Positions 14,206 to 31,983 of a DNA stretch of 64,000 nt are shown piece after piece. A model generated the notes under the pieces. It saw only the letters and a program-made list of their open reading frames with translations. It had not been told where the DNA came from and made no database searches. This DNA comes from Muribaculaceae bacterium. GTDB lineage: Bacteria; Bacteroidota; Bacteroidia; Bacteroidales; Muribaculaceae. The number at the start of each line of letters is the position of its first letter. Position 1 is the stretch's first letter. The DNA is taken from the NCBI GenBank assembly GCA_017427945.1, contig JAFRRT010000012.1:241109-305108 (forward strand), given 5' to 3'. The position numbers and the translations under genes are program-made.

Positions 14206-16721
14206 TCGTTACCTGTAATCACACTGAGTGGAACGAAAGTGTAACCTTTTTTCTTCAACGTCTTGATGAGGTCAGGCAGGCGGTCGTAGAATTTTTCTAT
14301 TCTGCGTTCATCGGTGCCGAAGTGTATCATCAGCAGATGGCCGTTGAGGGTCTTCTCCTTCTCGCAACGCATGATGCGGTCCCACAGCCACTTGTTGTCA
14401 CGGTAGGGGTTACCACCGGTAATGCCGGGATAGGTGTAGTCCATACAGCTCAAAGTGCCGGGTGAGAAATTGACCAACTGCAAACCTATCTCGCGGGCCC
14501 ACGCCGCCACAGTGGCGTTGTGCCACTCATAAGGCGGAATGAAGTAAGGTGCCTGCTGCGGAGTGATGCCGAAACGCTTCAATACCTCAAAACTCCTGAC
14601 GATATCGTCACGGAATTGTTCACGGGTAATCAGCAGTGAATCGCGCTTCTCCCACGCACAATATACCAAGTGTCCGTAGCTGTGGCTACCCACGTAATGT
14701 CCGTCGGCAATGAGTCGCTTAACCACATCAGGGTACATGTCAAAAAAGCGTCCTGTGAAGAAGAATGCTCCCTTGATGTCGTTCTTCTTGAGCGTGTTGA
14801 TGATGCGGTCAGCGCCGTCGGCACGGTCATCGGCAGTGAAGACAAGGCAAATCTGCTTTTTGGTGGCATCACCCCTGACAATAGCGCCCTCGTCCCACAT
14901 CATTTTTCCGCTGGCACCCCTACCCTCCATCTCATAGAACGAGAATGGGAAAGTCAACGAGGCGGTGCCGTCCATGGTGGGCTCATTGGTGCTGTAATCG
15001 TGGGTATTGTCATGATAAACCACGTCACCAGGCTGGAACATGTCATAGGTATTGCCCTCGATATTCAGCATGTCATCTGAAAGGTTCACGCCCTTGAGGC
15101 TGTTGAAGATGGTGGCATAGACAGGGCCATCGACGAGTCCTCCCGTGGGCATCCCCACACGCTCCATGACAAAGTTGCTGTGCGTGGCATGCGGATATGT
15201 TCCGCCACGAGGCAGTTCCACTATCATACTCGTGCCCCAGGGGTTACAGCCCAGCAGCCAGTCGCGCAAAGCCGCTTCCATTTCCTCAAACTGGCAGTCA
15301 CCTGTCAGCTGGCGGTACAAGATGCACTGGGTGAGCATCGCCGTGGTCAGGTTGTTGCTGCACCAGATGCCGGGCACACCCCACATGAAGGGATTACCCG
15401 TTTGTTCGGCACGCTGTTTGACGCGCTCGATGCCAGCCTTGATGTTGCGGACGAACTCAGCTTGCAGGCGCTTGTTACCGTTAGTCTCTTGGGCGATGCG
15501 CACGTGTCCCATGTTCATGAACGGATACCACTGGTAGTGACGCGCACTGTCGGCACCCATCCAGGGGGTGACCGGTTCGCGGCGACCATATTCTACGGCT
15601 TGGCTCAGGAACTCAGGATTTCCTGTCGCATGGTACAGTTCAATGGCACCTAACTCCATGTCATCCACCCAGTTGTCCTCCTCATAAATGTACGGCGACA
15701 CTACACTTACCGTCTGGGTGTTACCCGGCTTGTCAAGGCCCACCTGATAGGCATCGGCAGCCTTGGCTCCAATTTTGGCGGCAAACTCGGGATAATAAGG
15801 AGCCAACACTTGGGCACCCAGAGCGAAGTCGCTGGCATATTTGCCCGCTGTGCTTGCTGCGCCCATGGTGGCATTCATGTACTTGCCGCGCTGCTGCGGC
15901 TTGCCGTCGATAAAATAGACAGGACGTCCGTTGTTGGGTCCCCAACCATAGTCTGCAGGGTCATCCTTAGGCAGTTTCATGCCTATGTGGTCGCGGTCAT
16001 CGGCAATCTGGTTATAGAGTTCCCCTTTGGCGGGATTCATCTTGTCAAGCCACGTAAGGCCCCAGTAAATTTCATCAATGATATCTGGGATGCCATTGGC
16101 GCCCTCCAACCCGTTGGCCTGATAGTGGTCGCCGAAGGCCGTCGGACACTGCTGCCAAGCGAGCATCATCTGGTAGATGGCGTTGGCACTGGTGGTGGTG
16201 TATTGCAACAGGTCGGCTGCATCATGCCAGCCGCCGCGCACGTCGATGCGCTGGCCCTCTTTCTCGGGGTGATAACGCACATAAGCATCCTTAACATGGC
16301 AACTGTCGCGCTGGAACGGATTGAAACCGCACCGCTGCTGACGCATATAGTTGAGCACAAAGTCGGCGGTACCGTCCCACACGCGGTTGTTGATGGGGAA
16401 CACCGGTGATGAAACGCCGGCCGCCACGATGCGGTAAGAGCCCTCGGTACCGAAGTCGCTGAAGTCCAGACGGCATGTCGCCGCCATCTGTCCCCACGAC
16501 CCCATGTCGCGTGTGGCGGTCGAGCGATAAACCGTCTCACCAGTATAGGCGTCCACCAACTCAAACTCATGGATTGCCACTTTTTCCTGGCTCATAAATA
16601 CCGCTACTTTCTTGGCCTGCGGCAAGTAACCCAGTTGGTTGATGCGTATCCATCCAGAGGCATGAGCCATCATGCTGACCAATGCCAATAATGTCACAAA
16701 TGCAAACAGTCGTCGTTTCAT
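14202..16721 (-). CDS. Secreted GH9 glycoside hydrolase fused to NodB-type (CE4) polysaccharide deacetylase
   Basis: The 839-residue protein has a signal peptide (residues 1-21), a CelD_N-like Ig domain starting at WIRINQLGYLPQAKKVAV, a GH9 (alpha/alpha)6 catalytic domain with GGWHDAAD (D167 region, the catalytic Asp pair) and a YSTNEPTMDGTAS stretch carrying the expected acid Glu. From about residue 620 there is a separate NodB domain: TADDRADGADRI (D631, D632), SHSYGH as the His metal ligands, FIPPYEW in place of the usual RPPYG, and LLMIHFG. GH9 enzymes cleave beta-1,4-glucans; CE4 enzymes remove N- or O-acetyl groups. The missing Arg in motif 3 leaves the activity of the second domain uncertain. 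It overlaps the acyltransferase gene. Confidence 0.9.
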   Translation of the reverse strand: MKRRLFAFVTLLALVSMMAHASGWIRINQLGYLPQAKKVAVFMSQEKVAIHEFELVDAYTGETVYRSTATRDMGSWGQMAATCRLDFSDFGTEGSYRIVAAGVSSPVFPINNRVWDGTADFVLNYMRQQRCGFNPFQRDSCHVKDAYVRYHPEKEGQRIDVRGGWHDAADLLQYTTTSANAIYQMMLAWQQCPTAFGDHYQANGLEGANGIPDIIDEIYWGLTWLDKMNPAKGELYNQIADDRDHIGMKLPKDDPADYGWGPNNGRPVYFIDGKPQQRGKYMNATMGAASTAGKYASDFALGAQVLAPYYPEFAAKIGAKAADAYQVGLDKPGNTQTVSVVSPYIYEEDNWVDDMELGAIELYHATGNPEFLSQAVEYGRREPVTPWMGADSARHYQWYPFMNMGHVRIAQETNGNKRLQAEFVRNIKAGIERVKQRAEQTGNPFMWGVPGIWCSNNLTTAMLTQCILYRQLTGDCQFEEMEAALRDWLLGCNPWGTSMIVELPRGGTYPHATHSNFVMERVGMPTGGLVDGPVYATIFNSLKGVNLSDDMLNIEGNTYDMFQPGDVVYHDNTHDYSTNEPTMDGTASLTFPFSFYEMEGRGASGKMMWDEGAIVRGDATKKQICLVFTADDRADGADRIINTLKKNDIKGAFFFTGRFFDMYPDVVKRLIADGHYVGSHSYGHLVYCAWEKRDSLLITREQFRDDIVRSFEVLKRFGITPQQAPYFIPPYEWHNATVAAWAREIGLQLVNFSPGTLSCMDYTYPGITGGNPYRDNKWLWDRIMRCEKEKTLNGHLLMIHFGTDERRIEKFYDRLPDLIKTLKKKGYTFVPLSVITGNE

Positions 16722-16913: not shown

Positions 16914-16921
16914 TACCTTTG
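16914..16921 (+). promoter_or_regulatory. -7 promoter element of the partner-switch/NRPS operon
   Basis: TACCTTTG followed by CA is a full -7 match, preceded by a run of A/T bases. It lies 52 bases upstream of the phosphatase ATG. No other TAnnTTTG with a suitable position was seen in the short gaps of the six downstream genes. Confidence 0.6.
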
Positions 16922-16973
16922 CACAGTCTGTGAATAACAGTCCAGTGTTGATGTTTTTGGATAAAATCTAGAC

Positions 16974-19190
16974 ATGACGTTCAAGCATCTGTTCAACAAA
17001 CTAAATGGACGCAAATCCCGGCGGTACTTCGCAACGCTGGGCATTATTCTGCTTGCTGGTGCGCTCATCGAAGGTCTGTCGCTGCTTCAGTACCGATATG
17101 CCCACCGTCTTATTGAAAAAGAATTGGATTATCGCGCCGAGAGCGAATTGACCCTGAAGTCAGTTCGAGTGAGAAGCATGCTCAAGTCCAACGAGAAATT
17201 GGTTCGCAACTACATGTGGCTCATTCAGCGGCAGATACATCACACCGAGAATTTCTACAGCATCCTGCACCGCATTGTTGACACCAATGATGATGTAATG
17301 AGTTGCTTTGTGGCATTCGTCCCTGGCTATTATCCTGATCGTGAATACCTGTTTGAACCATGCGCCATACGTCGCGGCGACAGTATCGCCACCGTGCAGT
17401 TAGCGGGCGAAAAACACGACTATACCAAAAGGGAATTCTATGAGCAGGGCGTCCTGCATAACACAGCATGCTGGACCGACCCTTATCTTGATGCCGACGC
17501 CAGCGGCCGACAAGTCGTTACTTATTCAATGCCCCTGAGTGATGAGACAGGCAAGACTGCAGGCGTTTTCGGCATTGACTTGTCCACCCAGGGAATTATC
17601 GACACATTGAACACTCGCCATAACTACCCCTCGACGTTCTTCCTGCTGCTCACCGAGGACGGCCAACTTATCTCCCAACCCGACTCATCTCACACTCAAC
17701 AGAGTGATGTGGCCACTGTAGTGAACATGATTAACGACAGTACTTACGAACGGGAATCCAGCACAACAGGCCACAGCAAGATCATCACATTCAATGATAA
17801 GGAAAAGGGCACGGGCTACGCCTACTATGCGTTCATGAAAGGAAAACCCCACTGGCAAATAGTGATGGTTTGCTATGACGATGAAGTTTACGGACAATTG
17901 AAAAAAATGCAACGCAACATGCTGATAATGTTGCTGGCCGGTTTTACGCTGCTGGGATTCATTCTTTACCGCTTCAACTACAACATGCAACGCTTGAACA
18001 AGTCCAAGCTTATCAAAGAACGAACCGACAGCGAACTGCGCATTGCCCAAGGCATACAATCCAGGATGCTTCCCACTATAGGCATCCAGCGACCTGATGT
18101 GGATATCAACGGCAGACAAATGACAGCTCTTGAAGTGGGCGGTGACCTTTATGACTATATCATTCGTGATGAGAAGCTATACTTCTGTATCGGTGACGTG
18201 AGCGGCAAGGGCGTGCCCTCATCGCTAGTGATGGCTGTAGCCCACTCTCACTTCCGCAGCTATGCTCAACACGAGAGCAATCCCGCCCGCATCATGCAGA
18301 CATTTAATGAGGTCGCTTGCGAAGGTAACGAAAGCAATATGTTTGTAACACTGTTCATCGGCGTGCTGGACCTGCCCACCGGTCGCCTGCGCTATTGCAA
18401 TGCCGGTCACGATGCGCCGCTGATTATTGGTGACGACGTGCAACCGCTTGCCGTGAACGCCAACTTGCCTGTGGGTGTGTTCAGCGACATCAAGTATGGT
18501 CTGCAAGAGACCATGCTTCCCGCCAATGTGACACTATTGCTTTATACCGATGGACTGACCGAGACCGCAAACAGCGAACGTCACTTGTTCGGCTTGAAGA
18601 ACGTGACTGATACGGCTCAGAAGTGTATAGAACGAGGCCTTACATCTCCCGAGGCGCTAATGGACACCCTTCAAGAAGAAGCCACCCTGTTTGCCGACGG
18701 GGCACAACAGAGCGATGACCTGACAATGCTCGCTATCCATTACCACCGTCCTGTCGAGGCCATCACACTTGACGAGACAATTACCCTGAGCAATGACCTG
18801 AAACAGGTGCCCGAACTCAATGGTTTTGTCAAATCGGTAGGTGAGCGATTAAACCTTGACCCCTCTTTATCGTCACAGCTCATGTTGGCGGTCGAGGAAG
18901 CTGTCGTCAACGTGATGAGTTATGCCTACCCCATCGGCACCGAAGGCAAGATTCAGGTGGATGCCCGTGCAACTGAACAGAATCTGAAATTCATCATCAC
19001 CGATGAGGGCAAGGCGTTTGATCCGACGCAGGGCGGCAATGCCGATATCACGCTGGACGTCGAGGATCGTCCCATTGGCGGGCTTGGCATCCTGCTGGTG
19101 CAGTCACTGATGGACTCCATCAACTATGAGCGCGTTGACGGCAAGAACGTGCTTACACTTAAGAAAGACTATCATAAACAACATCTTTAA
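16974..19190 (+). CDS. Sensor PP2C (SpoIIE/RsbU-type) phosphatase fused to an RsbW-like anti-sigma kinase domain
   Basis: The 738-residue protein has an N-terminal membrane helix (about 21-42), a periplasmic dCache-like region (about 50-300; FYEQGVLHNTACWTDPYLDA, GKTAGVFGIDLSTQGI), a second helix (about 318-336), then a PP2C domain with all metal motifs present: EVGGDLYD (G389-D391), GDVSGKGVPSS, YTDGLTET, QSDDLTML. The last 140 residues are a GHKL kinase domain with EEAVVNVMSYAYP, DEGKAFDP and GGLGILLV boxes intact. One polypeptide thus carries both the phosphatase and the kinase of a partner-switching circuit; the STAS substrate is encoded 10 bases downstream. It would read a periplasmic signal. 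Confidence 0.9.
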   Translation: MTFKHLFNKLNGRKSRRYFATLGIILLAGALIEGLSLLQYRYAHRLIEKELDYRAESELTLKSVRVRSMLKSNEKLVRNYMWLIQRQIHHTENFYSILHRIVDTNDDVMSCFVAFVPGYYPDREYLFEPCAIRRGDSIATVQLAGEKHDYTKREFYEQGVLHNTACWTDPYLDADASGRQVVTYSMPLSDETGKTAGVFGIDLSTQGIIDTLNTRHNYPSTFFLLLTEDGQLISQPDSSHTQQSDVATVVNMINDSTYERESSTTGHSKIITFNDKEKGTGYAYYAFMKGKPHWQIVMVCYDDEVYGQLKKMQRNMLIMLLAGFTLLGFILYRFNYNMQRLNKSKLIKERTDSELRIAQGIQSRMLPTIGIQRPDVDINGRQMTALEVGGDLYDYIIRDEKLYFCIGDVSGKGVPSSLVMAVAHSHFRSYAQHESNPARIMQTFNEVACEGNESNMFVTLFIGVLDLPTGRLRYCNAGHDAPLIIGDDVQPLAVNANLPVGVFSDIKYGLQETMLPANVTLLLYTDGLTETANSERHLFGLKNVTDTAQKCIERGLTSPEALMDTLQEEATLFADGAQQSDDLTMLAIHYHRPVEAITLDETITLSNDLKQVPELNGFVKSVGERLNLDPSLSSQLMLAVEEAVVNVMSYAYPIGTEGKIQVDARATEQNLKFIITDEGKAFDPTQGGNADITLDVEDRPIGGLGILLVQSLMDSINYERVDGKNVLTLKKDYHKQHL

Positions 19191-19200
19191 TACATAAAAC

Positions 19201-19506
19201 ATGGAATCGATAATCCAAGAATTTGACAAGAACATCATCGTCACCATGAACGGCTCGCTCGATACCGCAGCAGCCATCGAAACTGAACAGACGCTGAAAC
19301 CCATCACCGCCGAGGAGGTGGACAAAGACATCGTGTTTGAATGCCAAGGGCTGGAGTACATTGCATCCAGCGGCCTACGCATCTTGCTCGACGTGCTCAA
19401 GAAGACCAAAGCCAAGGGTCATAAGGTCACGCTGAGCAACCTCAACGACGACATCAAGAACGTCTTTAAGATCACGGGGTTTATCAATCTGTTTGAGTTT
19501 GAGTAA
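19201..19506 (+). CDS. STAS-domain anti-sigma factor antagonist (SpoIIAA/RsbV-like)
   Basis: The 101-residue protein is a bare STAS domain: VTMNGSLDTAAA strand-helix, then LEYIASSGLRILLDVLK containing S56/S57 at the place of the Ser that is phosphorylated in SpoIIAA and RsbV. It is expected to be phosphorylated by the GHKL domain and dephosphorylated by the PP2C domain of the preceding gene product. It overlaps no gene and is followed by the barrel gene 7 bases later. No sigma factor is encoded nearby, so the final target is unknown. Confidence 0.9.
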   Translation: MESIIQEFDKNIIVTMNGSLDTAAAIETEQTLKPITAEEVDKDIVFECQGLEYIASSGLRILLDVLKKTKAKGHKVTLSNLNDDIKNVFKITGFINLFEFE

Positions 19507-19513
19507 TCACCCC

Positions 19514-20887
19514 ATGAGACTCAAACATAACAATTTCAGGCAATGGCTGCTGACAGTTCTCGCCGTGCCTGCGTTGCTGGCATCAGGACAGCCCGCTACT
19601 GACACGATTCCCGCACCGCAGAACCAGTTAAGCGTGGACCTGCAGTTTTTGGCACGTGGCGAGTCCCGATATGGAGGTCTGCCAGCAGTGCCCGTCATTG
19701 AGGACGATGATTACGAGATTGTAGAACCCGACAAAGTGCCGACTTCCAATTTCGTGCTCAGCCGCACACGACTGCCCATTAATTTCAAGCGCAACTGGCT
19801 TGAAGCACGTGTCAGCATGCAGCATTCCGGCGTGTGGGGACAGGCGGGAAAAGGAGCTTTTAACCTGCATGAGACCTGGGTGAAGATGACTTCACGGTTC
19901 GGTCTGTTCGGTCAGGTGGGCAGAGTTGCGTTGTCTTACGATGACGAACGCATCATCGGCACCGATGATTGGGCTATGACGTCACCATCCCACGATATCC
20001 TGCGACTGGGCTATGAAGGGCATGGCCACAAAGCCCACATTATTCTGGCTTATAACCAGAATGCCGAAGTGATGAACAGTGGCGGCTCTTATTATAGTAA
20101 CGGTGCTCAGCCCTACAAGACCATGCAAGTCGCGTGGTATCACTATGACCTGCCGCGATTCCCGCTAGGGGCGTCGTTGCTATTCATGAACATCGGCATG
20201 CAGAATGATGAGTCGCATTTCAACGGGATTGAAAAGACGATATTCCAGCACCTGTTAGGAACCTATTTGTCGTTCCACCCTAAGCGCTGGTTTGCCGAGG
20301 CCTCCTATTATCACCAGTTCGGCAAAAACGAGGATGGCATTAAAATCGATGCCTGGATGGCAAGTGCCAAGGTCTCCTTTAAGCCTGCTGACAATTACGC
20401 CTTCGCAGTAGGCTGTGATTATCTGAGCGGTGACAAGTATTTTGCCGTGCCTACAGGACACAACCTGGGTATGATTCATCATGATGTCATCAAGGGCTTC
20501 AGCACGGTTTATGGCTCTCACCATAAGTTCTATGGAGCCATGGACTTTTTCTATGTAAGCGCCTACCGTGACGGATTCACCCCCGGTCTTCAGAACACCT
20601 TTGCAGAAGCTATGTACAGCCCCATGAAAAATCTTGTCTGCAAGGCCAGTTATCATTATCTGGCTACTGCCACCAAACTTGATGATATGAATAGAGCCCT
20701 CGGCCACGAGGTGGAACTGCAGGCGAGTTATGCCTTTGCCAGCAATGTGAAGTTATCGCTCGGCGCCTCGTTCATGAAAGGAGGTGAGACCTTGGAGCGG
20801 CTGAAACGATCCACCAAAAAGAATGAAATGCGCTGGGGATGGATCTCGCTGAGTGTCAATCCTCGGATCCTATCTACTAAATGGTAA
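19514..20887 (+). CDS. Outer-membrane beta-barrel protein of unknown function
   Basis: The start at ATG 19514 (MRLKHNNFRQWLL...) gives a signal peptide ending near ALLASGQPA; a TTG start at 19493 would overlap the STAS gene. The mature protein is about 435 residues of alternating polar/hydrophobic strands with many aromatic residues (WLEARVSMQHSGVWGQ, GWISLSVNPRILSTKW at the C-terminus), typical of porin-like or alginate-export-like barrels. No TonB box, plug domain or SusC motifs are seen. It lies between the STAS gene and the NRPS gene with a 47-base gap to the latter and no terminator, suggesting that it handles the product or the signal at the outer membrane; this is inference. Confidence 0.72.
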   Translation: MRLKHNNFRQWLLTVLAVPALLASGQPATDTIPAPQNQLSVDLQFLARGESRYGGLPAVPVIEDDDYEIVEPDKVPTSNFVLSRTRLPINFKRNWLEARVSMQHSGVWGQAGKGAFNLHETWVKMTSRFGLFGQVGRVALSYDDERIIGTDDWAMTSPSHDILRLGYEGHGHKAHIILAYNQNAEVMNSGGSYYSNGAQPYKTMQVAWYHYDLPRFPLGASLLFMNIGMQNDESHFNGIEKTIFQHLLGTYLSFHPKRWFAEASYYHQFGKNEDGIKIDAWMASAKVSFKPADNYAFAVGCDYLSGDKYFAVPTGHNLGMIHHDVIKGFSTVYGSHHKFYGAMDFFYVSAYRDGFTPGLQNTFAEAMYSPMKNLVCKASYHYLATATKLDDMNRALGHEVELQASYAFASNVKLSLGASFMKGGETLERLKRSTKKNEMRWGWISLSVNPRILSTKW

Positions 20888-20934
20888 ATATAGTCCCAAG
20901 TATTAACGCCTACAATCCATAATAAAACAAGTAT

Positions 20935-23900
20935 ATGAAATCATCAGCACCCTTATTAACCTCACAATACGGTATCTATATAGAATGTGCGAACCACCGG
21001 GGAGAGCCATTTTATAATCTGCCTTATATTTATATACTGGACGGTTCATTGGACGGCCAACGGCTGCTTGACGCCATTGAGACGGCCTTCAAGGCCCACC
21101 CCACCCTGTTCACCCGCATCGCACTGAATGATAACGGCGAACCCATCCAGACGCTAGACATGGACAACGAACCCTGGTCACTCGCTGTTGAGGAAATTCA
21201 GGACATAGAGCAGGAGAAGCCGCGTCTGGTGGAGCCCTTCGACATCGACGGAGGACGCCTGTTCCACATCCATGTGATGCACGATAAAGACCACTATTAT
21301 CTGTTCCTGGACTATCACCATATCATCGTGGACGGCACCTCGATGCAGATTATGCTGCAAGACATCGACAAGGCCTACCGTGGTGAGCCCATTGTCCCCG
21401 AGGAGATGACCCTCATGGAGGTTGCAGAGGCTGAATCGCAGCTGCGCCAGACCGACACCTTGGATAAGGGCAGGCAATGGTATGCCCAAAACTATGACTG
21501 CGGCGACACTTTCACCCAGTTCATGCCTGACTTGGAGGAGCCCGAGCATCGTGAGGACCACCTGCAGCGCACTCTCTCGCTCGACATGGCGAAAGTAGAA
21601 GACTACTGCAAACTGAACGGCGTGTACAAGAGTACACTGTTCACTACTGCCTTTGCATTCTTGCTGGCCAAATTCAACAATGAGCCCGAATCGCTGTTCA
21701 CCACCGTATATAACGGCCGGCCCGACAAGCGTTTCTCCCATTCGGTGGGCATGACGGTAAAGACACTGCCGGTTTATGCCAAATTCACTCCCGACACTCG
21801 CGTGCTTGACCTGCTACAACAGGGCCAGGAGCAGATGAGCGGCTGTCGCCTGCATGAGGTATATACCTACAGCGATGTGATGACTGACTTGAACCTGCAA
21901 AGCAATGCCATGTTTGCATGGCACGGACAGTTGTTCGACAACGAAACGATGGGTGGCAAGCCCATGCAGACCGTCCGCATCGGCAACAGCACGCTTGATG
22001 CATCGTTTTATCTGAAAGTCTTTATCCAGGACGACAAAGTCCAAGCCAAGGCCGAATATAATTCCAACGAATACTCCAGCGATTTCATCGCTCAAATACT
22101 GGAGAGTTACGAGGCTGTGCTCGAGGAGTTCCTCGCCAAAGAATACTTGCGTGACATCGATATCGCCACTTCAAGCCAGGTTGCGACACTTGACAGTTTC
22201 AATCACAATGACATGGACTATGACGCCAGGCAGACTATCGTCTCGTTGTTCCGTCATCAAGCCCAGGCTACGCCCGACGCCATTGCTGCAGTCTATACCG
22301 ACAAGCGGTTCACCTATGCACAAGTGGACGAAATCAGCGACCGAATCGCGGCACATATCGCCAGCAAGGGTCTGGGCGCCGAAGATGTAGTATCGGTACT
22401 TATTCCCCGCAGCGAGTGGATGCCTATCGCCTCGCTGGGTGTGTTGAAAGCCGGTTGCGCTTACCAGCCGCTTGACCCCAGTTACCCCAAGGAACGCCTG
22501 AACTTCATGATGCAGGATGCCAGTGCCAAATTGTTGATTGCCGATGAGGAGCTGCGTCCCATCGTTGACGAATACCAGGGCGAAGTGTTGCTGACAAAGG
22601 ACATCATGAATTTGCCCGCTGCAACAGCTCCCGTGGTGGACATCAAGCCTGATCAGTTGTTCATCTTGCTCTATACCTCAGGCTCGACGGGCATTCCTAA
22701 GGGTTGCCAGTTGACGCAGGGTAACCTGGTGGCCTTTTGCAATTGGTATCAACGCTTTTATGACCTCAAACCCGAACACAATGTAGCCGCATACGCAAGC
22801 TATGGTTTCGATGCCTGCATGATGGATATGTATCCCGCTTTGACCTGCGGAGCTACTGTCCATATTGTCCCCGAAGAGCTTCGTCTGGACCTCATCGCTC
22901 TGAATGATTATTTCGAACAGAACGGTATCACCCACTCGTTCATGACGACCCAGGTGGGCTACCAGTTCGCCACAAGCATTGAGAACCACTCGCTGCTGTA
23001 CCTCTCGACGGGTGGTGAGAAATTGGCATCGCTGACTCCCCCACAGGGCTATAAGTTCTTCAACGTCTATGGCCCCACCGAGTGCACCATCTTCACCACC
23101 ACCTATCTGGTGGACAGGAAGATGAAGGAGATTCCCATCGGCAAGCCATTGGACAATATGCGCCTCTACATCGTTGACCAACAAGGCCATAGACTACCCG
23201 TGGGCGCCGCTGGAGAGTTATGGGTTGCAGGTCCTCAGGTGAGCCGCGGCTACCTGAACCGCCCTGAAAAGACTGCTGAAGTCTATATCGACAACCCCTT
23301 TACTACCGATGAGAAATATGCGCGCGTCTATCGCACGGGCGACATCGTGCGCTATCTGCCCTCGGGCGACATCCAGTTTGTGGGACGCCGAGACGGTCAG
23401 GTCAAGATTCGCGGTTTCCGCATCGAGCTGAAGGAGGTTGAGAGTATCATCCGTGAGTTCCCCGGCATCAAGGACGCCACAGTTCAGGCCTTTGACGAGG
23501 ATGGTGGCGGCAAGTTCATTGCTGCCTACATCGTGAGTGACGAAAAGGTGGACATCGAGGCACTCAACAACTTCATCCTTGACGAGAAACCGCCTTACAT
23601 GGTGCCTGCAGTGACAATGCAGATCGATGCCATACCCTTGAACCAGAACCAGAAGGTGAACAAGCGCGCCCTGCCCAAACCTGAGAAGAAGGCCGCTGCT
23701 ATCGAGGAGGCCAACGTGCCCATGAACGTGCTGGAGGAGCAACTGCACCAGATAGTCGCCGACATCGTCAATAATAAGGACTTTGGCGTAACCACCGTGC
23801 TGGGCTATGCTGGCTTGACTTCCATTTCGGCCATCAAACTGGCAGTACAGGTCAACAAGCGCTACGGTGTGACGCTCGACTCCAGAAGTCTGGTGAAGAC

Positions 23901-26900
23901 CGGCACAATCCAGACCATCGAGAACGAAATCCTCAAGATGATGCTTGCCGGCGGAAGCATTGAGACACAAAAAACTGAATCTGCACTACAAAAGGCGCGA
24001 ACCAGCGCTCCGCTGTCTTATGCCCAGACCGGTGTATATTTCGACTGCCTAAAGAATCCCGCCTCCACCATCTACAACATTCCTTATCTGCTCTCCTATC
24101 CCGAGGGTACCGACGCCAATCGTCTTGCCGATGCCGTCAAGCGTGTGATTGAGGCCCATCCCGAGCTGAGTGTACACTTCATGACCGAGGGCGACTCCAT
24201 CGTTCAGACAACCGATGACAGCGTTCCGGCCGAGGTGAACATGATTGAGATGAGCGAGGAAGAACTCGCAAAATACAAGAACGAGTTCGTGCGTCCCTTT
24301 AATCTGCAAAAGGCGCCGCTCTACCGCACCGAAGTGGTCAAGACACCCACAGGCGTCCACCTGTTGCTGGATGTTCACCACTTGGTATTTGACGGCGGCT
24401 CGGCCGACTTGCTCATCCGCCAAATCAATGCTGCCATCGAGGGTAAGGAGGTCGAGACTGAATCCTATAACTATCTGGACTTTGTCGCCGACCAACAGGC
24501 TGCTGAGGAGACTGACGCCTTCAAGGCTTCACAACAATTCTTTGCCGAGAAACTGCAGACCTGCGAGGGTGCCAGTGAAATTCCCGCCGACCTGCCCAAG
24601 AGTGACGAGCAAGGCTACATCGGTGAGGCTGTGTGTCCTGCCGATCTTGAAAAGGCTACGGCCTTCTGCCGTCAGCAGGAAATCACGCCCGCCCATCTGT
24701 TCCTGGGCGCCACGGCCTATGTCGTCTCACGCTACACCAACAACCGCGATGTCTATCTGTGCACCGTCAGCAGCGGCCGCAGCAACCTCAAGATTGCCGA
24801 CACCGTGGGCATGTTTGTCAATACCCTTGCATTAGGCATGAGTATCGACGACGTGACCGTCAGCGAATTCCTGAAGCATGCCAGCGACACGTTCGACCAG
24901 ACATTGCGGCACGAGGACTATCCCTTTGCACGCATCGCCACCGATTATGGTTTCCGTCCTGCCATTGCCTACGCCTATCAGGTTGGCGTGCTTTCACAAT
25001 ACACCGTAAACGGCAAGCCCATACATCAAGAATTACTTGAACTTAATGCACCCAAGTTCAAGATTAACATCAAGATAGAAACGCGCGGAGTTGTCGTTCA
25101 ATATGACGATTCGATTTACAGTGAGCGCATTGGTCAAGGCTTGGCCGAGAGCATCGTTGCTGTTGCCAACAGGATGATGGGACAACCTCAGGCACGCTTG
25201 CGCCAGTTGTCCATCGTGAGTGAAAACCAAGAGGAGGAATTGAGCCACCTGCGCCAGACGGCGACGGGTGACGCGCCCTTCACGTTCTTGCATGAGTGCA
25301 TCGGCCACTTCGCCCAAACACAACCCGACCACGAAGCGCTGGTTGCCGTGGATGCCAAGTTCACTTATAAAGAGATGCACGAAGTCACCACCCGCATTGC
25401 CGCAGCGCTGCAAAGTCGTGGAGTGCAGGCGCGAGACCGTGTAGCCCTGCTCTTGCCTCGCACCAGCAGACTCATACTGGCCCTCTTCGGTGTACTGAAG
25501 TCGGGTGCCGCCTACATCCCCTGCGACCCGGAATATCCCGCCGACCGCGTGAAACTCATTCTCGAGGACAGCGAGGCACGCTACATCATCACAACCGCCG
25601 ACCGCATGGACACTGTTCCTGCCGATAAGGCCATCAATGTGGAGGACCTGATTGCAGCAAATGATGAGTATCATGCTCCTGACATCACACCCGAAGACCT
25701 TGCCTACCTGATTTATACCAGCGGTTCGACAGGCCGTCCCAAGGGCGTGATGCTGCACCACCGCGGCATCTGCAATTATCTGTACGGCCATCCCGCCAAT
25801 GTGTTTGCCAACGGCGTGATGACCGATGCCAAACGCATCATGAGCGTGACGACCATCTCGTTTGATGCCGCCCTGCAGGACATCGGTACCGCCTTCTTCA
25901 ACGGCAAGACGCTTGTCGTCGCCACCGAGGAACAGGCAAACAACCCGCTTGACCTGGCCCGTCTCATCAACGAGGAACACGTCAACATGGTGTCGGGCAC
26001 GCCGTCACGCTGGATGACGTGGTTGACGAGTGAGGACTTCTGCGATGCCATCAGCCGCATCAACATTGTGCGCGCCGGTGGCGAGAAATTCTCCGACCAG
26101 TTGCTTGGACAAATCCGTAAGGTCACCAAAGCCCGCATCTTCAACTGCTACGGACCCACCGAGATTACCGTGGCATCGAACAACAAGGAACTGACTCATG
26201 CCGACATGGTAACCGTAGGCAAGCCGCAGCTCAATGTTGTCGAATACATCGTTGACCAGGACGGCAACGAGTTGCCCGTGGGTGTTGTCGGTGAATTGTA
26301 TATCGGCGGACGCGGTGTAGCCCATGGCTACAACAACCTGGACGAGATGACACGCGAACGCTTTGTGGATTACCACGGCACACGCATCTACAAGTCGGGC
26401 GACTACGCCAAGTGGCTGCCCGATGGCGATGTTGTCATCCTGGGACGCACCGACCACCAAATCAAGCTGCGCGGCCTGCGCATCGAATTGGGCGAAATCG
26501 AGAACGTGATGCTTAAGGTCGAGGGCCTGAAGAAAGTGGTTATTCTCATCCGCAAAATCAACGACAAGGAGCACTTGTGCGCCTACTATACCGCCGACCG
26601 TGAGATTGCACCCGACGCACTCAAGGCCGAGATTTCCAAGAGCCTGACGCAGTACATGGTACCTACGGCTTATCTACAACTCAAGGAGATGCCCATGACA
26701 CCTAACGGCAAGACCGACGTCAAGGCATTGCCCGAGCCTGAACTGGCCATCACTTCAGCTTATGTGGAGCCTGCCAATGATACGGAGCGCACATTCTGCG
26801 ACATCTTTGCAGGCATCCTGCAAATGGACAAGGTGGGCGCGACCGACAACTTCTTTGAGTTGGGCGGCACTTCGCTTGTTGTGACGCGTGTCATCATCGA

Positions 26901-28185
26901 GGCCGACAAAGCCGGAATACATGTGGCCTATGGCGACGTTTTCGCCAACCCTACGCCTCGCAAGCTGGCGCGCCTGATTACAGGTGACAGTGGCAACGAA
27001 GGTGATGATGAGGTGACCGGATTTGACTACACAGCCATCAACAACCTGCTGCAAAAGAACACGTTGACAGCCTTCCGTCAAGGTGAGTTCCAGCAGTTAG
27101 GCGACGTATTGCTGACAGGTGCCACGGGTTATCTGGGCATCCACATCCTGCGCGAACTGATTGACTCGGATGCACGCAACATCTACTGCCTCGTTCGCGG
27201 CAAGAATCAGGAGGCTGCCGAGGGCCGCCTGCGCACCCTGCTGTTCTACTATTTCTCTGATGCATTCAAGGACCTGTTCGGCAAACGCCTGCACATCGTT
27301 CTCGGTGACGTGACAAGCGACTTCGGCGAGGGCTTGAAAGTCGATACGGTCTTCAACTGCGCTGCCATCGTGAAACACTTCAGCGAAGGCACTGAAATCG
27401 AGGACGTGAACATCGGTGGAGCGCAGCGCTGTGTGGACTACTGCATCAAAACAGGCGCCAAACTCATACATGTCTCTACAGCGAGCACGCGTGGCCTGTG
27501 GGCCGGCGAGGCTAAGAATGACATCTTCACCGAGCAACGGCTTTACATGGGCCAGTACCTGGGCAACAAGTACATCTACTCCAAGTTCATGGCCGAGCGA
27601 CTGATACTGAATGCAGTGGCCCTGCATGGATTGAATGCCAAAATCATGCGCGTGGGAAATCTCGCCGCCCGTTCGACCGACGGCGAATTCCAGGCCAACT
27701 TTGCCACCAACTCGTTCATGGGGCGCATCAAGGTCTATAACATGCTGGGATGCTGTCCTTACAGTGTACGCAACAAGCGCGTCGAGTTCTCGCCCATCAA
27801 CGAGGTGGCGCACGCTATCGTGCTGTTGAGCTCCACACCCAAGGATTGTACCGTTTTCCATCCCTACAACATCCATGGTCAGTTCCTGGGCGATGTGCTG
27901 ATGGGACTGATCAGTGTGGGAGACGGCGTGCGCTTCGTCGAGCAGGAAGAGTTCGATGAAGCGATGGAACGCGCCAAGGAAGACCCGCAGATGGCCAAAC
28001 AGATGGCGTCACTGCTCGCCTATCAGGACATGGCGCATGGACAGAAGACCACCGACGTCAGCCGCGACAACGATTACACGACTCAGATGCTGTACCGTTT
28101 GGGCTTTGCATGGTCGCCCACCTCATGGGACTATGTGGAGCGCATGTTGACGGCCATCGGTTCACTAGGTTTCTTTGATATGTGA
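20935..28185 (+). CDS. Two-module NRPS, C-A-T-C-A-T-R, with terminal thioester reductase
   Basis: The 2416-residue protein has domains in this order: C1 (about 1-430, HHIIVDG with H128, H129, D133); A1 (about 445-930, YTSGSTGIPKG near 580, NVYGPTE, GFRIELKEVE); T1 with the Ser at 963 in GLTSISAIKL; C2 (about 1010-1430, HHLVFDGG with H1148, H1149, D1153); A2 (about 1450-1940, YTSGSTGRPKG near 1594, NCYGPTE); T2 with FFELGGTS (S1980); R (about 2040-2416, TGATGYLG near 2061-2068 for NAD(P)H, Tyr2213 and Lys2217 as catalytic pair). A leading C domain implies that the first residue is N-acylated. Reductive release gives an aldehyde or alcohol. Similar C-A-T-C-A-T-R lines of gut bacteria make dipeptide aldehydes and pyrazinones. 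A MATE pump and PPTase follow directly. Confidence 0.95.
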   Translation: MKSSAPLLTSQYGIYIECANHRGEPFYNLPYIYILDGSLDGQRLLDAIETAFKAHPTLFTRIALNDNGEPIQTLDMDNEPWSLAVEEIQDIEQEKPRLVEPFDIDGGRLFHIHVMHDKDHYYLFLDYHHIIVDGTSMQIMLQDIDKAYRGEPIVPEEMTLMEVAEAESQLRQTDTLDKGRQWYAQNYDCGDTFTQFMPDLEEPEHREDHLQRTLSLDMAKVEDYCKLNGVYKSTLFTTAFAFLLAKFNNEPESLFTTVYNGRPDKRFSHSVGMTVKTLPVYAKFTPDTRVLDLLQQGQEQMSGCRLHEVYTYSDVMTDLNLQSNAMFAWHGQLFDNETMGGKPMQTVRIGNSTLDASFYLKVFIQDDKVQAKAEYNSNEYSSDFIAQILESYEAVLEEFLAKEYLRDIDIATSSQVATLDSFNHNDMDYDARQTIVSLFRHQAQATPDAIAAVYTDKRFTYAQVDEISDRIAAHIASKGLGAEDVVSVLIPRSEWMPIASLGVLKAGCAYQPLDPSYPKERLNFMMQDASAKLLIADEELRPIVDEYQGEVLLTKDIMNLPAATAPVVDIKPDQLFILLYTSGSTGIPKGCQLTQGNLVAFCNWYQRFYDLKPEHNVAAYASYGFDACMMDMYPALTCGATVHIVPEELRLDLIALNDYFEQNGITHSFMTTQVGYQFATSIENHSLLYLSTGGEKLASLTPPQGYKFFNVYGPTECTIFTTTYLVDRKMKEIPIGKPLDNMRLYIVDQQGHRLPVGAAGELWVAGPQVSRGYLNRPEKTAEVYIDNPFTTDEKYARVYRTGDIVRYLPSGDIQFVGRRDGQVKIRGFRIELKEVESIIREFPGIKDATVQAFDEDGGGKFIAAYIVSDEKVDIEALNNFILDEKPPYMVPAVTMQIDAIPLNQNQKVNKRALPKPEKKAAAIEEANVPMNVLEEQLHQIVADIVNNKDFGVTTVLGYAGLTSISAIKLAVQVNKRYGVTLDSRSLVKTGTIQTIENEILKMMLAGGSIETQKTESALQKARTSAPLSYAQTGVYFDCLKNPASTIYNIPYLLSYPEGTDANRLADAVKRVIEAHPELSVHFMTEGDSIVQTTDDSVPAEVNMIEMSEEELAKYKNEFVRPFNLQKAPLYRTEVVKTPTGVHLLLDVHHLVFDGGSADLLIRQINAAIEGKEVETESYNYLDFVADQQAAEETDAFKASQQFFAEKLQTCEGASEIPADLPKSDEQGYIGEAVCPADLEKATAFCRQQEITPAHLFLGATAYVVSRYTNNRDVYLCTVSSGRSNLKIADTVGMFVNTLALGMSIDDVTVSEFLKHASDTFDQTLRHEDYPFARIATDYGFRPAIAYAYQVGVLSQYTVNGKPIHQELLELNAPKFKINIKIETRGVVVQYDDSIYSERIGQGLAESIVAVANRMMGQPQARLRQLSIVSENQEEELSHLRQTATGDAPFTFLHECIGHFAQTQPDHEALVAVDAKFTYKEMHEVTTRIAAALQSRGVQARDRVALLLPRTSRLILALFGVLKSGAAYIPCDPEYPADRVKLILEDSEARYIITTADRMDTVPADKAINVEDLIAANDEYHAPDITPEDLAYLIYTSGSTGRPKGVMLHHRGICNYLYGHPANVFANGVMTDAKRIMSVTTISFDAALQDIGTAFFNGKTLVVATEEQANNPLDLARLINEEHVNMVSGTPSRWMTWLTSEDFCDAISRINIVRAGGEKFSDQLLGQIRKVTKARIFNCYGPTEITVASNNKELTHADMVTVGKPQLNVVEYIVDQDGNELPVGVVGELYIGGRGVAHGYNNLDEMTRERFVDYHGTRIYKSGDYAKWLPDGDVVILGRTDHQIKLRGLRIELGEIENVMLKVEGLKKVVILIRKINDKEHLCAYYTADREIAPDALKAEISKSLTQYMVPTAYLQLKEMPMTPNGKTDVKALPEPELAITSAYVEPANDTERTFCDIFAGILQMDKVGATDNFFELGGTSLVVTRVIIEADKAGIHVAYGDVFANPTPRKLARLITGDSGNEGDDEVTGFDYTAINNLLQKNTLTAFRQGEFQQLGDVLLTGATGYLGIHILRELIDSDARNIYCLVRGKNQEAAEGRLRTLLFYYFSDAFKDLFGKRLHIVLGDVTSDFGEGLKVDTVFNCAAIVKHFSEGTEIEDVNIGGAQRCVDYCIKTGAKLIHVSTASTRGLWAGEAKNDIFTEQRLYMGQYLGNKYIYSKFMAERLILNAVALHGLNAKIMRVGNLAARSTDGEFQANFATNSFMGRIKVYNMLGCCPYSVRNKRVEFSPINEVAHAIVLLSSTPKDCTVFHPYNIHGQFLGDVLMGLISVGDGVRFVEQEEFDEAMERAKEDPQMAKQMASLLAYQDMAHGQKTTDVSRDNDYTTQMLYRLGFAWSPTSWDYVERMLTAIGSLGFFDM

Positions 28186-28195
28186 TTATAAAGTC

Positions 28196-29530
28196 ATGCA
28201 ACTGCAAGATAACGACATCACCAAACAGTTTTACCGCTATTTGTGGGCCTACATCCTGGTAGCCCTTTCGGGCTGTCTGGGTAATGTGGTTGACGGCATC
28301 ATCGTGGGCAACCTCATCAGCGAGGACGGCGTGAGTGCCATCAACCTGTCCAAGCCCATCAACCAGTTCATCTTCACCCTGCATCTGCTCATCAATGCGG
28401 GTGCGGGAATGTTGGTGGCCTATGCCCTGGGGCAGAAAAAGATTGACGACGCACGACGTTTCTTCACCCGCGCATTGACGCTGAGCCTGGGGCTGGGACT
28501 GCTGCTCGCGATTGTCGGCGGATTGATGTTCCCGCACCAGACAGCGCGCCTGCTGTGCAGCAACGAGCAGATTCTGCCGTTGGCACAGGACTACATGCAG
28601 GTGCTGCTCATCGGCAACCCGGCCTTCATCCTCATGTGGGGCTTATCGACAATGGTGGGCGTTGACGGCAGTCCACGGCTTGTGTCGCTGGCTGTCATCA
28701 TCGACAATGTGGTCAATTTGTGTCTGGACATCGTGTTCATCCAATGGTTCGGCTGGGGCATCACGGGTTCATCGGCAGCGACTGTGGTGGGACACCTTGT
28801 GGGTATCGCCATCTTGCTTAGCCATTGGCGCAAACCCGAAAACAGGCGCTTGGTGCCTGTCTTTTCGACCGATGGGCTTGCTGCCTCGTTGAAACGGATT
28901 ATATCACAGGGAGCGCCGTTGGCAGTGGCCTCCATCTGCCTGACGTTGCTCCTGCTCAGTGCCAATACCATCGTGCTCTCGACAACGGGACGCACCGGTA
29001 TCTTCGTATTCGCTTTGTGCATGAACCTGCTGCAGGTCTATAACCTCTTCCTGTCGGGCACTTGCCAGACGCTGCAGTCACTTGGTGCCATCCAGGTAGG
29101 GAAAGGCAATGATGAAGGCGTGCGCGCAGTCATCAAGCGGGCTTTCCGCTTCATTACCACAGCAATGGTTATCACCTGTATGCTCGTGTGGATATTCCCC
29201 CAGGGCATTGCTCGCCTGTTTGGCTGTGACGAACCAGACATGCTGGCCCAAAGCACCAATGCCCTTCGCGTGTTTGCATTGAGTTTCATACCCTTCTGCT
29301 ACATCTATGTGCTGATGATTGTCTACAAGCTGTACAGTCAACATCGCATGGCACTGTTCATCTCGTTTGCGTTGTCGCTCACGGTTATCCCCGTGCTGTG
29401 GCTCATGGCGCGACTGCTGCCGCAATACATCTGGCACAGTTACCTAATCGCCTACTTGATTGAAGCGATCATCATCTTCGCAATGCACAAGGGACGGAAC
29501 ATCCAGTTCCAATTAGCCCCTAAGAATTAA
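28196..29530 (+). CDS. MATE family efflux transporter
   Basis: From ATG 28196 (MQLQDNDITKQFYRYLW) the protein has 444 residues and about twelve hydrophobic segments in two similar halves. NVVDGIIVGNLISEDGVSAINLSKP at the first helices and MLVAYALGQKK are typical of the Na+/H+-coupled multidrug and toxic compound extrusion family. A TTG 21 bases upstream lies inside the NRPS gene and is less likely. The gap to the NRPS stop is only 10 bases, so it is co-transcribed; export of the NRPS product across the inner membrane is the natural inference. Confidence 0.9.
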   Translation: MQLQDNDITKQFYRYLWAYILVALSGCLGNVVDGIIVGNLISEDGVSAINLSKPINQFIFTLHLLINAGAGMLVAYALGQKKIDDARRFFTRALTLSLGLGLLLAIVGGLMFPHQTARLLCSNEQILPLAQDYMQVLLIGNPAFILMWGLSTMVGVDGSPRLVSLAVIIDNVVNLCLDIVFIQWFGWGITGSSAATVVGHLVGIAILLSHWRKPENRRLVPVFSTDGLAASLKRIISQGAPLAVASICLTLLLLSANTIVLSTTGRTGIFVFALCMNLLQVYNLFLSGTCQTLQSLGAIQVGKGNDEGVRAVIKRAFRFITTAMVITCMLVWIFPQGIARLFGCDEPDMLAQSTNALRVFALSFIPFCYIYVLMIVYKLYSQHRMALFISFALSLTVIPVLWLMARLLPQYIWHSYLIAYLIEAIIIFAMHKGRNIQFQLAPKN

Positions 29531-29547
29531 TCGCCGACAGTCAAAGG

Positions 29548-30126
29548 ATGGTTTACATTGACGAGAACATCTGGGACTTTGACCTGCAGCAGGCATTGGA
29601 ACAAGTCAGCGCACAACGGCGTGAATATGCCCTGCGTTATCGCCATGAGCGTGACCAGCGCCTGTGTATTGCTGCCTATCGCCTGCTCATGAGGGCCATG
29701 AAACTGGAATATGGCATCGACGAAGCTCCTGAGTTCATCTATGACGAGAACGGCAAACCGTTGCTCAAAGGATACCCCGACATCCACTTCAGCCTGAGCC
29801 ACTGCCATGAGGCAGTGGCCTGTGCTGTGAGTGACCATCCCGTCGGGATTGATATTGAGACCACCGAACACTACAGCATCGAGGTGGCACGCAGAGTGAT
29901 GAACGACGACGAAATCAGGCAAATCGAAGCATCAGCCCAACCAGAAGTCACCTTCACCCAGTTGTGGACCAAGAAAGAGAGCCTGTTCAAACTCACGGGC
30001 GACGATCTTGACGGCAACACGGCACAAATGCTCGATAAGGCCGACAATTACCGTTTCGAAACCGTCATCCATCCCCGCTACATCTACACCGTCTGCTCCA
30101 CCACCACACCCGACAAAAAGCACTGA
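29548..30126 (+). CDS. 4'-phosphopantetheinyl transferase, Sfp-type
   Basis: This 192-residue enzyme would load the phosphopantetheine arm of CoA onto the Ser of the NRPS T domains. Family motifs are present in order: HFSLSHC at about 80-86, VGIDIETTE at about 97-105 with the Mg2+-binding Asp/Glu, and WTKKESLFKLTG at about 139-150. Length fits the shorter Sfp/AcpT class. It begins 17 bases after the MATE gene and completes the biosynthetic operon, so it is probably dedicated to it, though it could also serve other carrier proteins. Confidence 0.93.
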   Translation: MVYIDENIWDFDLQQALEQVSAQRREYALRYRHERDQRLCIAAYRLLMRAMKLEYGIDEAPEFIYDENGKPLLKGYPDIHFSLSHCHEAVACAVSDHPVGIDIETTEHYSIEVARRVMNDDEIRQIEASAQPEVTFTQLWTKKESLFKLTGDDLDGNTAQMLDKADNYRFETVIHPRYIYTVCSTTTPDKKH

Positions 30127-30321
30127 CACTGAAGCAGTAACCCTTAGGTTCCTTATCTGTTGCTCTTATTTAGAATGTTGCTCCCATTTACCCAAAGACT
30201 TCCTTTTTTTGGGAAAACAATAGTTGGACTGGACAAGATTTCGATAACCTGCTCTCGTTCGGCAAAATTCAAACAAGTTTGATATTGCGCTCATTTAATC
30301 GCAGATTTGGGAAATAAGTGT

Positions 30322-30329
30322 TACTTTTG
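30322..30329 (+). promoter_or_regulatory. -7 promoter element of the fatty acid transporter gene
   Basis: TACTTTTG followed by C matches TAnnTTTG and lies 36 bases upstream of the ATG at 30366. This supports the ATG and argues against the earlier in-frame start at 30318, which would lie upstream of the transcription start. The 239-base gap 30127-30365 otherwise shows no gene and no clear terminator. Confidence 0.6.
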
Positions 30330-30365
30330 CGGCATCAAATTAAAACGAAAACTTTATTAAATAAT

Positions 30366-31775: not shown

Positions 31776-31911
31776 TATATGTTATCATTGGCGAAAGATA
31801 ACTCACCAAAAAATCGCCAAAAATACGCCAAAAACAAAGAGAACGAAAAAGAAAAAGCAACAAACCGTCTTATTATCAGTTTATTGCGCATAATCTACAA
31901 ATAAAAACTTG

Positions 31912-31983
31912 TGAACCCGTGGGGAGTCGAACCCCAATCGAAGGAACCGGAATCCTTTATTCTATCCATTGAACTACGGGTCC
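31912..31983 (-). tRNA. tRNA-Arg (anticodon CCG)
   Basis: On the minus strand the 72-base sequence folds as a cloverleaf: acceptor GGACCCG with CGGGTTC (one G-T pair), D arm GTTCAATGGATAGAAT, anticodon stem AAGGA/TCCTT with loop TTCCGGT, so the anticodon is CCG (codon CGG). The T arm is TGGGG-TTCGACT-CCCCA. The discriminator is A and CCA is not encoded. Confidence 0.93.

Follow-up and report, generated by a model that had tools for sequence, protein, structure and literature searches.

A putative partner switch co-inherited with a nonribosomal peptide synthetase pathway in Muribaculaceae

The window analysed in this study is a stretch of 64,000 nucleotides from a Muribaculaceae bacterium (contig JAFRRT010000012.1, positions 241,109 to 305,108). 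On its plus strand, six genes lie end to end behind a promoter box. The first encodes a membrane-bound switch protein with phosphatase and kinase domains, the second a small STAS-domain protein, and the fourth a nonribosomal peptide synthetase (NRPS). It was found that the switch genes accompany this NRPS gene across the family, and this co-inheritance suggests that the switch controls a peptide factory in a way that was not found described. The features, with the open reading frame (ORF) and profile evidence for each, are as follows.

16914-16921, plus strand: -7 promoter box of the TAnnTTTG type, TACCTTTG, ahead of the first operon gene
16974-19190, plus strand: membrane sensor with PP2C phosphatase and GHKL serine kinase, 738 amino acids (ORF, Pfam)
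19201-19506, plus strand: STAS-domain protein with acceptor serine Ser56, 101 amino acids (ORF, Pfam)
19514-20887, plus strand: outer-membrane barrel with an AlgE/OprD fold, 457 amino acids (ORF, weak Pfam Alginate_exp match, fold comparison)
20935-28185, plus strand: two-module NRPS, C-A-T-C-A-T-reductase (C, condensation; A, adenylation; T, carrier), 2416 amino acids (ORF, Pfam, NCBIfam)
28196-29530, plus strand: MATE-family exporter, 444 amino acids (ORF, Pfam MatE, NCBIfam)
29548-30126, plus strand: 4'-phosphopantetheinyl transferase (PPTase), 192 amino acids (ORF, Pfam ACPS, NCBIfam)

An earlier sequence-only reading had described these genes as one operon. The ORF coordinates and Pfam matches bear out its six same-strand genes, their domains, and the gaps of 10, 7, 47, 10, and 17 bases between them. 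For these gaps, the barrel start was taken at ATG 19514 (the longest ORF begins at TTG 19493) and the MATE start at ATG 28196 (the longest ORF begins at TTG 28175). The -7 box lies where it had been placed. The claim that no terminator interrupts the operon is compatible with the data but is not established, since the hairpin scan as a whole was at chance (19 terminator-like hairpins versus 16.3 +/- 3.9 in shuffles); one weak terminator-like hairpin lies within the first gene (17938-17955).

Is the box placed in the same way in other loci? In 35/60 loci, the TAnnTTTG box, which I take to be of the housekeeping promoter type, is found no more than 110 bases ahead of the switch gene, against 6/60 for its reverse complement and 2-5/60 for permuted forms. 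Upstream of the other genes, it was found before the barrel in 3/52, the NRPS in 6/74, MATE in 1/54, STAS in 7/44, and PPTase in 5/16 cases. Six of the seven STAS boxes belong to loci with no module gene directly before STAS (L032, L011, L022, L058, L060, and L021). The permuted control ATnnTTTG reached 22/54 before MATE; the upstream bases are coding there, and thus the controls at this gene are not neutral. The placement fits one transcript from the front gene, while the PPTase boxes and the few at the barrel and the NRPS leave room for internal transcription starts.

The switch protein has Pfam matches to a PDC/dCache sensor, a SpoIIE-type PP2C domain (PF07228, 9.5e-46), and HATPase_c_2 (PF13581, 4.4e-26). 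Hydrophobic stretches at residues 20-38 and 316-334 border the dCache region (about 40-312), which is followed by the PP2C domain (about 350-592) and the kinase domain (about 598-736). Fold comparison supported the dCache and PP2C folds. The STAS protein has a single domain (PF01740, 9.2e-17). Across the switch-protein alignment, the PP2C metal-binding aspartates are kept (D391 63/64, D408 64/64, D526 63/64, and D582 63/63), as are the N/G-box residues of the RsbW-type GHKL domain (N646, D677, G679, G702, G703, and G705) in all 61 rows holding a kinase domain. The STAS acceptor serine S56 is present in 71/71 rows with a letter at that position, and S57 in 69/71. Judged by their sequences, a SpoIIE-type PP2C, an RsbW-type kinase, and a single-domain STAS protein are all present, and the set appears to be a partner-switching module in the broad sense. 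Cys48 of the STAS protein (window about 19342-19344) is also invariant in the 71 rows with a letter. Among the domains that the sensor resembles are also some that bind amino acids, amines, and other small ligands. The residues at the positions taken for the dCache amino-acid motif are variable, with R153 in 15/64 rows and F155 in 40/64 rows; thus, no ligand is named.

The Pfam order of the NRPS is C-A-PCP-C-A-PCP-NAD_binding_4, where PCP is the peptidyl carrier protein. The protein has two A-T modules with intact condensation and carrier motifs, and a terminal reductase with TGxxGxxG and YxxxK. In an alignment of 77 rows, the condensation-domain His and Asp, the carrier serines, and the reductase Tyr and Lys are kept in 76-77. 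This architecture predicts a peptide aldehyde (or alcohol) as the product. Since the active-site residues are kept in both the switch and the NRPS, both are expected to be functional. The A-domain pockets read DAMSSGVIF (A1) and DAQSRGCVA (A2), with the numbering of PheA and an alignment made by eye. DAQSRGCVA occupies A2 in 43/77 rows; the remaining rows have pockets of other types, and in 25 rows one pocket position is a gap. No amino-acid substrate was named from the A1 and A2 pockets. The C1 domain (window about 20935-22194) diverges fastest, with a mean distance of 0.39 against 0.26 for C2, 0.19 for A1, and 0.17 for the reductase (40 loci). A PaaK/F390-synthetase-like adenylating enzyme lies beside the NRPS in four loci (L003:17266-18612; members of neighbour group c18 in L017 and L063, plus strand; L133:7990-9333, plus strand) and is a possible supplier of an acyl or aryl starter. 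The extra condensation domain and these ligases suggest a possible acyl starter for the peptide. The best NCBIfam matches are AusA and AusB, and the reductase domain is closest to 6vtj and AusA. By cut-off, the NRPS is not AusA itself (NF047350), with a score of 1151.7 bits that is far below the required 2500; the AusB score of 70.6 is likewise far below its cut-off of 225.

The NRPS protein was scanned against one genome per species, giving 332 relatives, and the best 80 of the 332 were taken as the locus set. The 80 records come from uncultured Bacteroidales, many named for ruminant samples. Sixty loci have 8 kb or more of upstream sequence; of these, 55 have STAS, 50 the switch protein, 4 more the kinase part alone, and 44 the barrel. 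Of 49 loci that also have 4 kb downstream, 39 have MATE and 18 have PPTase. The six-gene order, for which the sequence-only reading had proposed a search, was found in 17 of these 49, with other genes between allowed; the order is therefore conserved outside the genome of the window. Mapped on the NRPS tree, the gene order shows at least 16 changes (47 loci), compared with 4 changes in the presence of STAS, 5 for PP2C, and 9 for the barrel (55 loci), and 5 for MATE (47 loci). Thus, gene content is kept better than gene order. A one-off arrangement of a single genome was rejected by the conservation across the loci, the genomes described below, and the NRPS tree.

I then turned to 247 Muribaculaceae genomes sampled evenly from a larger group. 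Thirty of them have a full-length NRPS, a set that was defined after the scores were seen (large matches over most of the query) and that leaves out G156, G164, and weaker matches. Each of the 30 has STAS and also a PP2C match. The distance from the NRPS is at most 5 kb for STAS in 28/30 and at most 10 kb for PP2C in 28/30. In the whole family sample, STAS was found in 34/247 genomes and is absent from 213 of the 217 without a full-length NRPS; the four others are G156 and G164, which have partial NRPS matches, and G004 and G144. PP2C matches were found in 40/247 genomes, ten of them without a full-length NRPS (the same four with G007, G035, G092, G119, G155, and G246). Fisher values are 2.3e-30 for PP2C and 1.3e-34 for STAS, and because the species are related, they merely illustrate the strength of the association. 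G095 and G173, of the window's own genus, are without NRPS, STAS, PP2C, and barrel together. The loci and the genomes overlap partly (L055 in G207 and L076 in G203), so that the two data sets are not independent. The sequences show a conserved system whose STAS and switch genes are co-inherited with the NRPS through many rearrangements. The grouping of the genes is confirmed, and it is stronger than first claimed.

Outside the family, 295 Bacteroidales genomes gave six NRPS relatives at 1e-150. The switch adjoins the NRPS in G509 and G498, and G248 and G475 are partial matches without a reductase. A search for relatives beyond the order, in 345 genomes of the phylum, turned up the genome of the window itself and four partial matches of 29-30%. 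A distant case, L154 (NRPS 32% and switch 27% identical), has the order NRPS-STAS-PP2C-PPTase. When the NRPS-linked label was mapped on a tree of 55 selected switch proteins, it required 6 changes, at least 4 of them forced by starred branches, although long branches make the exact numbers unsafe. Thus, the NRPS association was gained more than once or lost repeatedly.

In 13 genomes, the sensor-phosphatase lies at least 5 kb from the NRPS or on another contig, as tallied by eye (G101, G135, G146, G154, G880-G886, G888, and G889). This split set excludes G203 and G156, where contig ends explain the separation, and G887, which has only 34% matches. In 8/13 split genomes (G135, G146, G880, G881, G882, G884, G885, and G886), no more than 1 kb separates the barrel from the sensor-phosphatase; in one (G888), the barrel is beside the NRPS, and in four, it was not seen. 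STAS stays with the NRPS in 7/13 (G101, G135, G880, G881, G882, G884, and G886) and is near neither the phosphatase nor the NRPS in three (G883, G888, and G889); the other three are taken up below. Two of these genomes, G881 and G884, carry STAS on both sides; in G883, a second NRPS adjoins STAS and PP2C (L190). Three genomes (G882, G884, and G886) encode the kinase domain separately, next to STAS on the side of the NRPS, and a kinase-less phosphatase stays with the barrel. Separate kinase and phosphatase genes are also found adjacent to each other in L057. The main new observation is that the system seems to divide into an input half (barrel and sensor-phosphatase) and an output half (kinase, STAS, and NRPS).

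What does the barrel do? It had been read as the passage of the product through the outer membrane. That it mostly adjoins the sensor-phosphatase in the split genomes casts doubt on a barrel that only exports the product, and hints that it belongs to the input side. Thus, its role should be reconsidered. Fold comparison showed a barrel fold common to AlgE and the OprD/Occ channels, which is compatible with export and with uptake alike, and a sequence profile of the barrel against solved structures gave nothing significant (best E 0.88). Barrel matches occur in 26/247 family genomes, all with PP2C, 24 with a full NRPS and 2 with a partial NRPS. These findings, namely a barrel restricted to genomes with the system, its place beside the sensor-phosphatase, and its channel-like fold, would suit a self-sensing loop in which the secreted product or its breakdown form re-enters via the barrel and is recognised by the dCache domain, giving feedback on its own synthesis. 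However, at E 1e-15, no barrel match was obtained for 6 of the 30 NRPS genomes, and the small ligands bound by the relatives of the sensor are of several kinds. Moreover, the suggestion that the product itself is the signal gained no support from an indirect test, in which sensor divergence did not track the A2 pocket class. Such a loop, which could accompany either a direct or a transcriptional output, is quite improbable.

The classical output of a partner switch is a sigma factor. The genome of the window has one STAS match and one RsbW-type kinase match over the cut-off, with a second below it. Nine of its proteins have sigma region 2 and one has region 3. The sole Sigma70_r3 match is on the same frame as the best Sigma70_r2 match, and thus it is probably the primary sigma factor. 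No sigma-B/F-type factor was found in this genome, which is 96% complete, and an output of that type is disfavoured.

Regulators were also sought among the neighbours. In total, 1160 ORFs from the 80 loci and the window were clustered, with module genes included. At least five loci share each of the following non-module groups: antisense ORFs over STAS (11 and 9 loci) or over PPTase (5), BipA (8), switch-protein pieces (7), a short-chain dehydrogenase (6), and a TonB-dependent receptor (5). No conserved regulator or self-resistance gene was found among the recurrent neighbours, as judged from the clustered ORFs and Pfam on one representative per scanned group, where smaller groups were scanned only in part and group c15 was left out. 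Group c17 (4 loci) had no Pfam match. A sodium:neurotransmitter-type symporter lies between STAS and the NRPS in L061 (8662-9993), L069 (8617-9969), and L074 (8628-9956), and one lies upstream of the switch in L056 (3566-6330, plus strand); scans with hidden Markov models were made on L074 only.

Because neither a sigma-B/F factor nor a recurrent regulator was found, a classical sigma-B/F output is unlikely on these sequence data. A transcriptional output in trans is a wider alternative. The kinase or STAS would bind a sigma or transcription factor encoded elsewhere, with the primary sigma factor or one of about eight factors resembling the extracytoplasmic function type as the partner, and with the operon or other genes under control. 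The precedent of the classical switches speaks for it, as do the nine region 2 proteins and one other genome in which an AraC-type regulator follows a PP2C-STAS pair (L157:8223-9118, minus strand). It is weakened by the single region 3 factor, which is probably primary, by the recurrent neighbours, among which no regulator gene was found, and by the presumably housekeeping type of the front box. I regard this alternative as rather unlikely.

Given that neither a sigma-B/F-type factor nor, among the recurrent neighbours, a regulator was found, and that STAS (in some genomes together with the kinase) more often stays with the NRPS when the set is split, it is most likely that STAS acts by direct binding within the pathway. 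In the proposed mechanism, a periplasmic ligand would shift the sensor between kinase and phosphatase, and their balance would set the phosphorylation of STAS Ser56. One STAS form would then turn product formation on or off by direct binding; the leading candidate for its partner would be the NRPS, by analogy with the action of SiaC on SiaD. The barrel might admit the ligand or otherwise serve the sensor, and the MATE pump would export the product. The earlier claim that a periplasmic signal controls the pathway stands as the most economical reading, since the partner-switch set is specifically tied to the NRPS, but its parts on barrel passage and product sensing found no support. The statement as a whole, in which the operon makes a peptide aldehyde (or alcohol) under its own signal switch and the target may lie anywhere within the pathway, has a probability of roughly 0.55. 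Taken by itself, it is fairly probable that the switch serves this NRPS pathway. That the NRPS is the direct target of STAS is possible but doubtful. The fuller version is unlikely, namely that partner-switch phosphorylation acts directly on the NRPS through a STAS protein gating the assembly line, with the channel and the periplasmic sensor as an input half that possibly reads the product.

Several findings weigh against a switch dedicated to the NRPS. STAS is with the phosphatase only in 3/13 split genomes (G146, G154, and G885). Four of the 60 loci (L073, L080, L081, and L082) have neither STAS nor PP2C nearby; three of these genomes hold a sensor protein of 46-47% identity elsewhere, and G887 has only the 34% matches. 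In G339 and G297, Bacteroidales outside the family, there is no switch in the fetched stretch around the NRPS. The NRPS genomes without a barrel match and the lack of covariation between the sensor and the A2 pocket belong here too. In a comparison of distances, STAS tracks the PP2C domain (partial correlation 0.61), and none of the NRPS domains gives a clear signal (reductase 0.16, C1 0.14, and others at most 0.03). In addition, related PP2C/STAS pairs adjoin other genes in other Bacteroidales, including an APH-like kinase fused to STAS, LuxE/LuxC, a weakly nucleotide-cyclase-like protein, an AraC regulator, and an amino-acid-type ABC transporter. Judging from these neighbours, the PP2C/STAS set seems to be a plug-in module whose partner is encoded alongside.

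These other settings vary. STAS is fused to the APH-like kinase in L116 (11454-12641, plus strand), L117 (7865-9058, minus strand), L151 (11248-12495, minus strand), and L185 (from 5556, plus strand). The fusions adjoin a second PP2C/kinase sensor and have a TIGR02172 region (Pfam and NCBIfam on L116 only); here, a partner switch may act on the attached enzyme. A similar-looking protein of about 216 amino acids lies 3' of PP2C or PP2C-STAS in L163 (3792-4439, plus strand), L165 (5790-6434, minus strand), L167 (10359-11006, plus strand), and L168 (209-892, minus strand). It is nucleotide-cyclase-like in L168 only, and weakly (E 3.2e-4, below the cut-off). Genes for LuxE and LuxC/AMP-binding proteins, or for a PaaK-like ligase, come after PP2C-STAS in L115 (7749-14211, plus strand) and L162 (147-1968, minus strand).

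Modules of the same kind without an NRPS, and the expanded sets of switch-protein matches in some genomes (34 in G883, the genome of L070, and 21 in G885, the genome of L073), could mean that the switch governs something else (an envelope or nutrient response) and has only its promoter in common with the NRPS genes. Mere company does not agree well with the absence of STAS from nearly all family genomes without a full-length NRPS, with the two genomes of the window's genus that are without all the parts at once, and with a linkage that survived at least 16 changes of order. I consider this alternative very unlikely, and a partner switch dedicated to the NRPS pathway is likely on the present sequence comparisons.

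The genes flanking the operon look unrelated to it. Upstream on the minus strand lies a GH9 cellulase with a CelD_N domain, fused to a polysaccharide deacetylase domain (14202-16721), and an acyltransferase gene is also found upstream on the other strand. Downstream are a short-chain fatty acid transporter (30318-31712, plus strand) with its own -7 box, TACTTTTG, at 30322, and past it a tRNA-Arg (31911-31983, minus strand).

Searches for what controls a biosynthetic cluster usually turn to transcription factors. In this system, the sole control element found to be conserved is a switch based on serine phosphorylation and equipped with a periplasmic sensor, and thus post-translational control is directly testable. 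The sensor ligand and the state of Ser56 would offer a handle for waking silent NRPS clusters in rumen Bacteroidales, and in the split genomes, nature has already separated the input half of a partner switch from its output half. One survey counts 934 NRPS clusters in Bacteroidaceae (PMC8241843).

The sequence-only reading had known of no described system with this composition, and none was found in the literature searched; nor was a paper on partner switches in biosynthesis found there for Bacteroidota. I know of no partner switch in aureusimine or ruminopeptin-type clusters. RsbU/RsbV/RsbW, SpoIIE/SpoIIAA/SpoIIAB, and Rv1364c act on sigma-B/F-type factors, whereas no such factor was found in the genome of the window. 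AlgE and the OprD (Occ) channels share only 8-15% sequence identity with the barrel over the matches.

Closer parallels exist for the switch and for the NRPS. SiaABCD of Pseudomonas aeruginosa consists of the PP2C protein SiaA, the kinase SiaB, SiaC, and the diguanylate cyclase SiaD. Its kinase and phosphatase are separate proteins, whereas here they are usually fused, and the linked enzyme, a candidate target, is an NRPS rather than a cyclic di-GMP enzyme. To my knowledge, an NRPS regulated as SiaC regulates the diguanylate cyclase would be the first case, if true. The enzyme IgiD, which makes indigoidine, is also an NRPS. SypE of Vibrio fischeri has opposing PP2C and RsbW-like kinase domains in one protein, as here. 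It is reported to set the phosphorylation of its STAS protein, SypA, at Ser56 (PMC8256260, PMC12826045). However, SypE has a response-regulator receiver domain and no periplasmic sensor, and its output is biofilm. The latter paper also presents TciK/TciR of Vogesella indigofera, in which an RsbW-like domain affects indigoidine production by the synthase IgiD; this is a two-component system with a REC-RsbW protein, for which its authors note no RsbV homologue (PMC12826045). PMC7647112 and PMC8457831 were also consulted for the comparison. On the side of the product, AusA and the ruminopeptin-type enzymes are likewise two-module NRPSs ending in a reductase, with a PPTase partner, while the NRPS here has an extra N-terminal condensation domain. 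Dipeptide aldehydes from gut bacteria are treated in PMC12327764, which cites Guo 2017 and Schneider and Balskus 2018 as the original aldehyde papers. By analogy, the system would work most like SiaABCD and SypE/SypA, and its NRPS most resembles the aureusimine and ruminopeptin-type synthetases.

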